Source of the DNA: Salipiger bermudensis
GTDB taxonomy: Bacteria; Pseudomonadota; Alphaproteobacteria; Rhodobacterales; Rhodobacteraceae
DNA length: 64,000 nucleotides
Direction of reading: 5' to 3'
NCBI RefSeq assembly: GCF_019801965.1
Contig: NZ_JAHVIA010000003.1
Location: 186,001-250,000 of the forward strand
Below the pieces are notes generated by a model. It saw nothing but the letters and a program-made list of their open reading frames with translations. It ran no database searches and was not told the DNA's origin. Positions 45,598 through 63,323 of the stretch are shown in pieces. How positions within the stretch are numbered: position 1 is the first letter of the stretch; every line of letters starts with the position of its first letter. The position numbers and the translations under genes were made by a program.

Positions 45598-45755
45598 TGC
45601 CCCCTCTGTCCGTTAGCCTGAGATCGTTATCCCTTCGGCGGGCGCGGTCCCCCGCGCCACTCTCCAGAGTTCTGTCACCGCAAAGGTCCGTGGGCCTGAG
45701 AGTTTCCGGGGCGGTTGCTCCTTCGGCACCGGCGATGCCGGTTCTCCCTCTGCGA
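45598..45755 (-). ncRNA. Tandem glycine riboswitch in the gcvT leader
   Basis: Reading the minus strand, aptamer I shows GCCGAAGGAGCAA (about 45728-45716), AACTCTCAGGC (about 45704-45694) and GACAGAACTCTGGAGAG (about 45676-45660). Aptamer II follows with GCCGAAGGGATAACG, ATCTCAGGCTAACGGACAG (about 45639-45605). These are the conserved core elements of the gcvT-type glycine riboswitch. A G/C-rich hairpin at 45571-45595 (TCACGCGGG with CCCGCGCGTGA) may be the expression platform. Expected effect: gcv expression rises with glycine. Confidence 0.93.
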
Positions 45756-45778
45756 TGGCACTCAAGCTACGATGTTTG

Positions 45779-60309: not shown

Positions 60310-60792
60310 CTAGCAGCGCGGCACCCCCATGCGGATGAGCTCTGCCCCGCTCAGGCTGACATAGCCATTGCTGACGAAGCGCGCCTCGGAGAGGAACCAG
60401 TCGCGCAGTGGTGCTGGATAGTGCTCGGCCATGCGGCGCGACCAGTAGTCGAAGCGATCCGGGCTGATCGGCTTGAACCGGTAATAGGGCCCGTGAAACC
60501 CGAACCGGGTATTCGAAGCCACGCAGACATCGCCGGCGCCGAGATAGAGCGTGCAGGAGGAGAGGCAGAAATTGCCGCGGATCTCGACCCGGACCCCCTG
60601 GCTCCGCAGCTGCCGGATCTCTGCCAGCCGGGGCTGCAGCCGGCCACCGCGATCATTGCCGACCACATGAACCGACGCGAGACGATGCGAGACCTGTGCG
60701 CCCGCCTCGGTCGGCGCGATGACCGCCCCGGCGAGCAAGGCAAGCAACGGCAGGACGGCGCAGAAGCACCGCGAGAAAGCGGTCCGGGACAT
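60310..60792 (-). CDS. Exported protein resembling ClpP-fold (COG3904-like) proteins
   Basis: 160 residues with a signal peptide (about 1-32). The conserved string NFCLSSCTLYLGAGDVCVAS, then TRFGFHGPYY, resembles COG3904-type periplasmic proteins that have a ClpP/crotonase fold with Ser and His in similar places. Whether it is an active peptidase is unproven. Start MSRTAFSRC at 60792 is preferred over an ATG at 60849 because it begins the signal peptide. Confidence 0.68.
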   Translation of the reverse strand: MSRTAFSRCFCAVLPLLALLAGAVIAPTEAGAQVSHRLASVHVVGNDRGGRLQPRLAEIRQLRSQGVRVEIRGNFCLSSCTLYLGAGDVCVASNTRFGFHGPYYRFKPISPDRFDYWSRRMAEHYPAPLRDWFLSEARFVSNGYVSLSGAELIRMGVPRC

Positions 60793-60946
60793 GCAGGAAG
60801 ATCCTTGTCGAGAGAGCATGGCGGCAAGGAACGGGATTCGCCCTAACACCCGGTTGAGAGGCGATTTTGTCTCTAATTATCGGTAAATCCGCGCCAGCAC
60901 GCGGCCCGCATTGACGCGCGCCGCGCTTCGCGCACAAGCTGATCCC

Positions 60947-61846
60947 ATGACCGACACCACCACAGCCCCCGCGTCCGAGACGCGGCCGAGCCGCGAAAAA
61001 CTCAGCATGCATGACTGGGTCGGCGCCCTCTGGGGCACGTGGCTGCGCATGGACGAGCGCAATCTCGGGCTGATCTCGGCCGGGGTGGCGTTCTACGCCT
61101 TCCTCTCGCTGTTTCCGGCGATCTCCGCAGTGATTGCGATCTGGGGCTACTGGGCCGATCCCGTGGCGATCTCGGAACAGATGGAGCTGATGCGCGAGAT
61201 GATGCCCGAGCAGGCCTACGTTCTGCTCGAGACCCAGATCACCCAGCTGATCTCGGCCAACCGCTCGACCCTGCAATGGGCCTCGATCATCTCCATCGTC
61301 GTGGCGCTCTGGTCCTCGCGCGCCTCGATCGCGGCGCTGATCCGCGGGCTCAATGCGGTCAGCGAGGCACCGCATCGCGAAAACGCCATCCGTCGCATCG
61401 CCGTGGCCTTCCTGCTCACCGTCCTGCTGGTCTTCGTCGCGCTGGTGGCCTTCGCCGCGGTCGTCATCCTGCCTGCCGCCATCGCCTTCATCGGCCTGCC
61501 GATGCATGTGGAGATCGCGGTGAGCGCGGTGAAGTGGCTGATCCTGCTGGCGGTTGTGTTCTTCGCCATCGCGCTGCTCTACCGCTACGGCCCCAACCGC
61601 CGTAGCCGGCGGATGCGCTGGTTTACCCCCGGCGCCCTACTGGCGCTGCTCTCATGGGCGGCGGGCTCGGTGCTGCTGACGATCTACATGCGCAATGTCG
61701 ACCGGCTGAACGAGGTCTACGGATCGCTCGGCGCCGTGGTGGCGCTGCTGCTCTGGTTCTATGTCAGCGCGCTGGTCACGCTGCTCGGCGCGCAGCTCAA
61801 TTCCGAGCTCGACAAGCGGCGCAGAAAGAGCGCTGAAATTTCTTAG
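60947..61846 (+). CDS. YihY/BrkB family membrane protein
   Basis: 299 residues with about six membrane helices. ISAGVAFYAFLSLFPAISAVI, LWSSRASIAALIRGLNAV and YRYGPNRRSRRMRWFTPGALLAL match the YihY (formerly RNase BN/BrkB) family, which is membrane-embedded and of debated function. Start 60947 is chosen because the family N-terminus fits MTDTTT-onward; a frame from 60911 is open. The TAG stop overlaps TAGAAT, a -10-like element, and the gene is followed by a structured C-rich region with a strong terminator. Confidence 0.9.
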   Translation: MTDTTTAPASETRPSREKLSMHDWVGALWGTWLRMDERNLGLISAGVAFYAFLSLFPAISAVIAIWGYWADPVAISEQMELMREMMPEQAYVLLETQITQLISANRSTLQWASIISIVVALWSSRASIAALIRGLNAVSEAPHRENAIRRIAVAFLLTVLLVFVALVAFAAVVILPAAIAFIGLPMHVEIAVSAVKWLILLAVVFFAIALLYRYGPNRRSRRMRWFTPGALLALLSWAAGSVLLTIYMRNVDRLNEVYGSLGAVVALLLWFYVSALVTLLGAQLNSELDKRRRKSAEIS

Positions 61847-61855
61847 AATTTTCCG

Positions 61856-62003
61856 GAACCCCGGTGGCCGGTCGACGTTCTGTTTGCAAGGACGCCCTGT
61901 TTCGTCCTGTCCCTTCGCGGGCCGCGTCCCTGTCCCGGACCTATCCCAAGCGGCCCGCACCTGTCCCCACCCCGCTCTCCCCCCGGAGAGCGGGGTTTTT
62001 CTT
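61856..62003 (+). ncRNA. Candidate C-rich small RNA or structured 3'UTR of the BrkB gene
   Basis: Between the BrkB stop and the terminator, hairpin 1 pairs GACG (61891-61894) with CGTC (61903-61906) and shows CCCTGTTT in its loop. Hairpin 2 pairs GCGGGCCGC (61917-61925) perfectly with GCGGCCCGC (61950-61958) and has an inner GTCC/GGAC stem with CTGTCCC in the loop. CCTGT occurs four times, three followed by C runs. A TAGAAT (61844-61849) could be a -10 element. Loop-exposed C-rich boxes resemble the anti-Shine-Dalgarno motifs of some alphaproteobacterial sRNAs. The boundaries are approximate. Confidence 0.42.
61970..62003 (+). terminator. Strong rho-independent terminator after the BrkB region
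   Basis: CCCCGCTCTCC (61970-61980) pairs perfectly with GGAGAGCGGGG (61985-61995) over loop CCCC and is followed by TTTTTCTT. One of the best terminators in the window. Confidence 0.93.
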
Positions 62004-62073
62004 GTCCGGCCGGCACCGCAAAACCGCCGGGCGGAGACCCGGCGGCGCGACGCGTGTCAATCGGATGGAACGG

Positions 62074-63126
62074 TCAGGCCTGCCCGAAGATCGGCTTGGA
62101 CGAGATCGAGGTATCGCCGAGGATGTCGAAGAGGCGCAGCAGGATCAGGGTCACCGGGATCGCGACGATGCCGCCCAGCGGGCCCCAGAACCAGAGCCAG
62201 AACACCAGCGACACGAAGATAAGGAACGGGTTGATCTGCACGTGCCGGCCGATCAGCGCGGGGGTGACGAATTGCGCCTCGGTCATGTTGCAGGCCAGGT
62301 AGATCGCCATCGGGGCGAAGGTCATCAGCCCGTCGTAATTGACCACGCCAGCCAGCAGCAGGCCCGCCGCCAGAGCCGCCGGCCCGAGGTAGAGCACGAA
62401 GTTCAGCAGCATCGCGGCGATACCCCAGACCACCGCGCCGGGCAGACCGAGCAGCATCAGCGCGGTGCCGACAGCAATGCCGAGCCCGGCATTGACGATC
62501 GAGATGGCGGCGAAATAGCGCGAGACCATCGATTCCGCGTCGCAGAACCGCTCGAGAAGTTTCGGCGTGTCCATCCCGGTGCCGATCTTGGCCGAGACGT
62601 AGCGATAGATCTCGTTGCGGGTCAGCAGGAAGAAGAACAGCCCACCGAGGAAGATCAGCATCTGCGCCAGGATCACCGGTGCCAGGAATACGGCGTCGGT
62701 CAGCCCCGGCATGTCGGTGGCTTCCTTCTCGCCGCTGCCGCTGCCAAGGGCGGCCTCGACCTCCTTGTTCATCTGGTCAAAGCCCTGAATGAGACCCTGA
62801 TATTCGATGAACAGCTTGCGGATCTCGTATTTGATCGAAGGCAGGCGATCGATCACCGTCGTGATGTAGGGCTCGACGAGATAGGCAAGCGCCCCGATGG
62901 CGAAGAAGATGCCGACGATCAACCCCATCGCCACGGCGCCGCGCGGCAGGCCCAGCCGTTCGAGCCGGTCCGCAAGCGGGGCGAATATCACCCCGGTCAC
63001 GATGGCCAGCGTCAGCGGCGCAAAGATGTCCTGGGCTACCTTGAGCCCGAAGAGCAGCACGCCAGACGCCATGATCACCGTCGAGACGCGCAGCACGGTG
63101 TCAGAGACGATGGCTGGCCTTTTCAT
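62074..63126 (-). CDS. AI-2E family transporter
   Basis: 350 residues with about eight membrane helices, including the typical VSRYFAAISIVNAGLGIAVG and a C-terminal FWLWFWGPLGGIVAIP run. The family is called AI-2E after one member, but many act as Na+/H+ or small-solute carriers. The start at 63126 (MKRPAIVSD) has AGAGGCGAGG upstream; the frame extends to 63324 without homology. Divergent from exoD with 197 nt between. Confidence 0.88.
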   Translation of the reverse strand: MKRPAIVSDTVLRVSTVIMASGVLLFGLKVAQDIFAPLTLAIVTGVIFAPLADRLERLGLPRGAVAMGLIVGIFFAIGALAYLVEPYITTVIDRLPSIKYEIRKLFIEYQGLIQGFDQMNKEVEAALGSGSGEKEATDMPGLTDAVFLAPVILAQMLIFLGGLFFFLLTRNEIYRYVSAKIGTGMDTPKLLERFCDAESMVSRYFAAISIVNAGLGIAVGTALMLLGLPGAVVWGIAAMLLNFVLYLGPAALAAGLLLAGVVNYDGLMTFAPMAIYLACNMTEAQFVTPALIGRHVQINPFLIFVSLVFWLWFWGPLGGIVAIPVTLILLRLFDILGDTSISSKPIFGQA

Positions 63127-63323
63127 GCGAGTAGAACCTCGCCTCTCTGGGCTTGGTTCCACACTCTGGACAAAATCGTTGCGGCCCCGCATCAGCGGGC
63201 AATCGCCCGCGCCCGCGCCGATGCCCGCCGAACCGTGGCCATGTGCTAAGATTGCCGCACGCTCCGGTGGAACCCGGTGCCGCACCGCGACGTTCGGGTT
63301 AGAGCCAGAAGGAAGACAAACCA

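Follow-up and report, generated by a model that had tools for sequence, protein, structure and literature searches.

What is the C-rich array of hairpins that follows brkB in Salipiger bermudensis? The array lies in a stretch of 64,000 nucleotides, called the window below. In this window, brkB encodes a YihY/BrkB family membrane protein (60947..61846, plus strand, stop codon 61844-61846; match to Pfam PF03631 of 206.6 bits for a cut-off of 33.7). Downstream, an AI-2E-family transporter gene is found on the minus strand (62077-63123), convergent with brkB, and the array stands between the two genes. On the other side of brkB, a conserved reading frame occurs on the opposite strand (60310-60849, minus); it has no Pfam match at E 0.001, and similar proteins are encoded at the same position in several Salipiger loci. 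From the letters of the window, an initial annotation had proposed that the array is a small RNA, either made on its own or processed from the brkB mRNA. The best reading of the array is an RNA gene located behind brkB. The arguments for this reading, and for the way in which such a gene might be controlled and might act, are presented here.

Organization and conservation of the RNA

The predicted small RNA gene covers about 115 nt of the plus strand (61887..62001). Both ends are predicted, the start being placed at a conserved CAAGG block 7 nt past a -10 element. Hairpin 1 (61889..61908) is formed by AGGACG (61889-61894) and CGTCCT (61903-61908), and its 3' arm is partly overlapped by a linker box, CCTGTCCCT (61906..61914). 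Hairpin 2 (61917..61958) has a 9-bp stem, GCGGGCCGC/GCGGCCCGC (61917-61925 with 61950-61958), a C-rich loop of 24 nt and, in the window sequence, an inner 4-bp stem. The unit is closed by an intrinsic terminator composed of a stem-loop and a T run (61969..61996). Its stem (61969-61980 with 61985-61996) surrounds a loop of 4 and is followed by TTTTTCT (61996-62002), the first T of which belongs to the stem. Exact CCTGTCCC boxes are found three times, in the linker (61906-61913), in the loop of hairpin 2 (61929-61936), where the box is the proposed target-pairing seed, and before the terminator (61960-61967). All the stems and boxes that had been described are present in the sequence, as is the terminator, the stem of which has 12 bp instead of the 11 first counted.

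Sequences 3' of brkB were compared in 20 Salipiger genomes (L011-L030), the genome of the window and 19 more, after reverse-complementing the minus-strand loci. BrkB homologues with 66-93% identity in named records all come from Salipiger; seven named Salipiger records (L071-L077) correspond to the same stretches as seven of the 20 and were left uncounted. A best BrkB match was found in each of the 20 genomes, and each has behind brkB an RNA-like unit, 108-118 nt long, which starts with CAAG, ends at the terminator and follows a common order: hairpin 1, a GUCCUGUCCC-type linker, hairpin 2, terminator. Mean pairwise identity is 92% in the 5' arm of hairpin 1 and 39% in its loop, 97% in the linker columns (GTCCCT), 65% and 75% in the two arms of hairpin 2 and 87% in the core of its loop; it is 37% in the spacer before the terminator and 58% in the terminator region. 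A terminator stem and a T-rich tail exist in all 20 sequences, with stem sequences that differ between species. The loop of hairpin 2 is long and C-rich, typically CCCUGUCCCGACUUCCCUC; CCTGTCCC is exact there in 19 of the 20 sequences and the remaining one reads CCTATCC, and CCTGTCCCG is present in 18. The initial annotation had drawn attention to C-rich loops in two hairpins. Conservation extends to the loop of hairpin 2 but not to that of hairpin 1, CCCTGTTT, which varies. Similarly, the extra boxes are real in the window, but the third one (61960) is restricted to the window and its two closest relatives; most species have two boxes and three species have three. No reading frame of the RNA is conserved among the 20 Salipiger: internal start codons open no shared frame, and two sequences, including that of the window, have no start codon at all inside the RNA.

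Fold, pairing and covariation

The segment 61887-62002 folds with a minimum free energy of -58.4 kcal/mol (z -6.5, equalled by 0 of 200 shuffles), part of which is supplied by the terminator. A wider segment (61847-62005) gives a z of -3.8, again with 0 of 200 shuffles equal, and six of the 20 sequences, folded along with their shuffles, give z values of -4.4 to -6.5, each with 0 of 200 as good. The structure thus exceeds chance, as had been supposed, and what is decisive is its presence at this position in all 20 Salipiger together with the covariation of hairpin 2. Hairpin 2 and the terminator recur in the predicted folds of all 20 sequences; the fold of hairpin 1 is shared by 18 and altered in L026 and L029. 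The inner 4-bp stem claimed for hairpin 2 is indeed predicted in the window sequence, but in that one alone, a 3-bp version being seen in three other species.

In the alignment used for covariation (A1), 96.3% of 300 cells are paired and 8 of 15 pairs show double changes, a number reached by 0 of 500 shuffles. The covariation score is 0.382, versus 0.238 for shuffles and 0.038-0.090 for slid partners; as the tested structure was predicted beforehand from the same alignment, it has an advantage over the slid versions. Covariation in relatives, a check suggested at the outset, is found in hairpin 2, where 7 of 9 pairs have double changes and 98.3% of cells are paired. Its nine pairs undergo 21 pair-state changes in total on the BrkB tree, so that the double-change counts do not stem from a single inherited change. 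In hairpin 1, only one of six pairs has a double change (93.3% of cells paired, innermost pair formed in 13 of 20). Because this hairpin hardly varies, covariation gives neither strong support nor strong refutation for it. The box in the loop of hairpin 2 has a mean unpaired probability of 0.82-0.98 in all 20 sequences, and the linker box a predicted unpaired fraction of 0.27-0.61 (17 sequences with exact CCTGTCCC there). The loop of hairpin 2 is hence better kept than its stem and is predicted to be unpaired, as is typical of a pairing seed.

A conserved EcfG-type promoter signature

Upstream of the RNA, the window contains a -35 element of the type used by the general stress sigma factor EcfG, GGAAC (61855..61859, plus strand), and a -10 element, CGTT (61876..61879, plus strand), separated by exactly 16 nt. 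GGAAC is identical in the 20 Salipiger and NGTT occurs at equal spacing in all of them (CGTT in 9, other NGTT in 11), the whole GGAAC-N16-NGTT motif being placed exactly 32 nt before CAAG in every case. Identity is 100% for GGAAC and for GTT, 39% for the 16-nt spacer and 35% for the 7 nt that follow. The distance to brkB varies, the promoter lying 10 to 117 nt past the end of the protein match. For comparison, the consensus described for the Caulobacter general stress sigma factor is GGAAC / CGTT with a spacing of 15-17 nt (PMC5869019). The full motif occurs at 72 sites in the window's genome, against 45 for the reversed pattern, which is weak alone; since the motif is common by chance, it is the phylogenetic footprint that counts. 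With this conserved promoter, a gene of its own under stress control becomes much more likely. TAGAAT, first taken for a possible -10 box, finds no support: it is absent from the 19 other species, and a scan for sigma-70-type promoters between 61700 and 62200 returned none.

The genome of the window encodes PhyR (362 bits, cut-off 240) together with NepR (57 bits, cut-off 25.7), a sigma factor of the EcfG type and a histidine kinase, whose match to PhyK stays below cut-off. The sigma factor scores 318.6 bits with a sigma factor equivalog (cut-off 270) and is identified as EcfG by the place of its gene behind nepR. GGAAC-N16-CGTT is also found upstream of the likely phyR start (L089 5610-5634, minus). 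This general stress response (GSR) locus is on contig 12 of the assembly and the small RNA on contig 3, far apart. Close to the RNA, GGAAC-N17-CGTT (63269-63294, plus strand) precedes the ExoD-family gene exoD (63324), and GGAAC-N16/17-CGTT precedes the ExoD start in four of the seven named Salipiger loci (L071, L072, L074, L076). Judging from these motifs, exoD is probably another EcfG target beside the small RNA gene.

Proposed mechanism and alternative readings

The signatures of a trans-acting base-pairing small RNA are present: a predicted promoter of its own, a terminator, a conserved unpaired seed and no reading frame. The early proposal of a small RNA with a C-rich loop is upheld by conservation throughout the genus, by the covariation of hairpin 2, by the unpaired loop and strong terminator and by the lack of a conserved frame. 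The locus is probably a stand-alone gene of the general stress response, EcfG-dependent, whose RNA would act in trans in a GsrN-like manner. The fold, the seed and the promoter signature are conserved; we infer that the gene is transcribed, that it depends on EcfG and that its product pairs with mRNAs. In this model, phosphorylated PhyR would, under stress, remove NepR from EcfG. RNA polymerase carrying EcfG would then start at GGAAC-N16-CGTT just behind brkB and stop at the intrinsic terminator. Three structures would form in the resulting transcript of about 115 nt: a short 5' hairpin, hairpin 2 with its C-rich loop on display (in most species CCCUGUCCCGACUUCCCUC) and the terminator. Pairing with G-rich GGGACAGG-type stretches near the starts of target mRNAs would involve the loop, probably along with the linker box, and would alter the translation or stability of those mRNAs.

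Several other readings may be envisaged. As the region in the window comes directly after the stop codon, and as brkB transcripts would likewise end at the terminator, the array might be the 3' UTR of brkB, its structures stabilising or ending the brkB mRNA and any small RNA being a processing product. However, GGAAC-N16-NGTT keeps a fixed distance to the RNA in 20 of 20 sequences and a variable one (10 to 117 nt) to the end of the brkB match, and the loop core is kept better than the stems, a feature that a simple stabiliser could do without. Such a 3' UTR is rather unlikely, and processing from the brkB mRNA loses its place as main source to the independent gene favoured by the conserved EcfG-type promoter.

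It is improbable, too, that the CUGUCC boxes of the loop and linker serve to sequester an RNA-binding regulator, in the manner of CsrB. The repetition of short identical boxes, present twice in most species and three times in three of them, would suit such a role, but one to three boxes are few and the third is not conserved. Moreover, the GACUUCCCUC half of the loop is also conserved, which suits antisense pairing better, and we know of no CUGUCC-binding protein. The convergence of brkB and the transporter gene at the RNA site could finally call for a simple barrier to transcription between them, with no regulator involved; for a barrier, the conserved C-rich loop and a promoter 32 nt upstream are superfluous, and this last idea has very little chance of being right.

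Distribution of the RNA

The RNA is in single copy in its own genome according to BLAST, and no copy was found in a plasmid collection, from which near records may be left out. BLAST detected it in 10 of 61 relatives, all within the 20 Salipiger, the other 10 Salipiger being reached via brkB only. In the BrkB loci of 10 other genera, such a promoter is found near brkB in none. A search with a covariance model (R1) covered 394 genomes of the family, about one per genus and two of them Salipiger, with strict filters and 9 candidates scored per genome. It gave two strong matches (E ~1e-22 and 1e-24), in Salipiger only, and six marginal ones (E 0.001-0.0084) where about four are expected by chance. 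A pattern combining the promoter and two boxes was found in two of the 394 genomes, both Salipiger. Within reach of these sequence searches (about one genome per genus, strict settings), the RNA is confined to Salipiger. In the 20 Salipiger genomes, a pattern of three CTGTCC boxes shows no enrichment (25 matches versus 46 for the control), which indicates no genus-wide class of multi-box RNAs.

In Rfam 15, the only match of the whole window to reach threshold is a glycine riboswitch aptamer located elsewhere (45674-45759, minus; 57.2 bits, gathering score 32), and three RNA-bearing loci (L012, L023, L025) have no match at gathering threshold. It had been remarked from the outset that no fitting family could be named, and the covariance models bear this out at their gathering thresholds. 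Sub-threshold matches to Pseudomon-1, Atu_C7, Bp1_781 and anti-hemB were rejected, as they rest largely on the terminator; that to Atu_C7 (RF02501), for instance, is weak and mainly due to it (18.2 bits, E 0.046, gathering score 45 bits). As read from its sequence, the locus is a stress-type small RNA gene previously unlisted in Rfam, of a kind already known. In the open-licence literature, no paper on a small RNA in Salipiger was found, searches with Pelagibaca or Citreicella returned only unrelated work, and none of the papers listed for BrkB or EcfG with small RNAs dealt with this RNA.

Candidate targets and a recG-linked element

Possible target sites were searched in the 20 Salipiger genomes with the pattern GGGACAGGN{2,12}ATG, that is GGGACAGG near an ATG, the reversed pattern being the control. 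There were 889 matches versus 160, a difference from which no conclusion is drawn since the control is unmatched for ATG or composition. Positions were retrieved for four of the 20 genomes other than that of the window (150 matches), and 41 matches were examined, picked for strings that recur between genomes or are short. Among these 41, a MepK-like gene is alone in carrying the site at its start in every one of the four genomes, a case picked post hoc and uncontrolled. CGGGACAGGCGC ends 6-9 nt before the ATG of this DUF882/Peptidase M15 (MepK/YcbK-like) gene, and the loop sequence CCUGUCCCG is complementary to the site over 9 nt in three genomes and 8 nt in the fourth (G002). Pseudorhodobacter turbinis has the same GGGACAGGCGC before its MepK-like gene, and two Paracoccus records have AGGACAGGCG at the start of theirs. 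No such RNA was found outside Salipiger in the family sample. The site thus also exists in genera where no such RNA was found, and it is not explained by the Salipiger RNA. The MepK-like GGGACAGG site is a candidate target of the RNA; it may also serve in ribosome binding, or be recognised by a different RNA, for instance the recG-linked element described below. Duplex energies of the whole RNA with these leaders, compared with letter-shuffled leaders, were set aside because they ignore accessibility (0 to 2 of 300 shuffles as low for three leaders, 26 of 300 for the fourth). In the four Salipiger genomes, the MepK-like leaders (L216-L219) strongly resemble each other over the roughly 70 nt that precede the start codon, with the pattern ATCTGGGGA...GGCAGG...CAACGAGGCG...ACAGGTACAGCGACT.AACGGGACAGGCGC. 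They have no credible Rfam match, the one sub-threshold match lying inside the coding region. It is possible that the leader is structured or regulated by a small RNA.

Behind recG in many Rhodobacteraceae, often after a small reading frame, another box-rich element is observed, in which TTTCTGCCTGCG and CTGTCC/CTGCCT boxes accompany a terminator of the form CCGCCGCC...GGCGG. In the window's own genome it is on the reverse strand of contig 7 (L160), some 250-480 nt past the recG match; other loci are L123, L127 and L130-L159. Of 32 loci, 16 have CCTGTCC no more than 550 nt from the recG match, and the terminator pattern was found in 23 of 33. Six loci (L160, L123, L131, L136, L147, L152) have no Rfam match, and RNAalifold, run on a rough alignment, supports the terminator only. 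The element is a candidate family-wide RNA on these sequence features. Two of the six marginal R1 matches (L123, L127) are located behind recG. As these matches draw mainly on the terminator and some of the boxes and do not include hairpin 2, the element is not called a homologue of the brkB-linked RNA.

Considering the same boxes in the recG element and the GGGACAGG site before the start codon of the MepK-like murein endopeptidase gene in three genera, it may be imagined that RNAs with CUGUCC boxes form a wider network in the Rhodobacteraceae and that the brkB-linked RNA is the part of it under stress control. In Salipiger, a new RNA would have been recruited by EcfG and would mask the same MepK-like ribosome-binding site, thereby slowing cell-wall opening under stress. 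Such a network is unlikely.

Comparison with known systems

CcsR1-4 are small RNAs with C-rich loops that belong to the same bacterial order and are linked to stress sigma factors. Their loop motif is CCUCCUCCC, and they are processed from the ccaF1 transcript. This motif is absent from the 20 aligned Salipiger sequences. The CcsRs are named for Rhodobacter sphaeroides in PMC8307010. EcpR1 of Sinorhizobium meliloti is likewise an alphaproteobacterial trans-acting small RNA induced by stress; it measures about 101 nt and pairs at ribosome-binding sites through a strongly conserved loop (PMC4414408). It differs by its loop, UCCGCCGCAUCU, by the position of its gene behind divK-pleD, by its stringent-response control and by its conservation in Rhizobiales (PMC4414408).

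The closest parallel is offered by GsrN of Caulobacter crescentus, which is transcribed from the same type of promoter (GGAAC / CGTT), measures about 100 nt, ends at an intrinsic terminator and exposes a C-rich loop (PMC5869019). That loop pairs with G-rich sites of mRNAs, such as the katG leader (PMC5869019). By analogy, the Salipiger RNA would probably work like GsrN, the two being compared by description and not by sequence. The C-rich loop of the Salipiger RNA is in hairpin 2 (about nt 43-62) and reads CCUGUCCCGACUUCCCUC, whereas that of GsrN is near the 5' end and has six tandem C's (PMC5869019). The Salipiger gene is located behind brkB and not beside the GSR locus, whereas genes of GsrN-like small RNAs are beside phyR-nepR-ecfG, with the exception of C. 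crescentus, where gsrN is also away from that locus (PMC5869019). As described in the same paper, BLASTn homologues of GsrN are confined to Caulobacteraceae and the rhizobial GsrN-like candidates were chosen by promoter and position; Rhodobacter occurs 0 times in its main text, which gives no example from that genus (PMC5869019). Given a loop in the second hairpin, a position not beside the GSR locus and a likeness by description alone, the RNA is not filed as GsrN.

According to one paper, the role of PhyR in Rhodobacterales had not been analysed before 2018 (PMC5830050). If expressed as predicted, the RNA would give the PhyR-NepR-EcfG response of this order a direct output at the post-transcriptional level. 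It would also be a second RNA with a C-rich loop, apparently unrelated to GsrN, under the same sigma factor, and it would become testable whether C-rich-loop RNAs arose repeatedly as the base-pairing arm of the general stress response.
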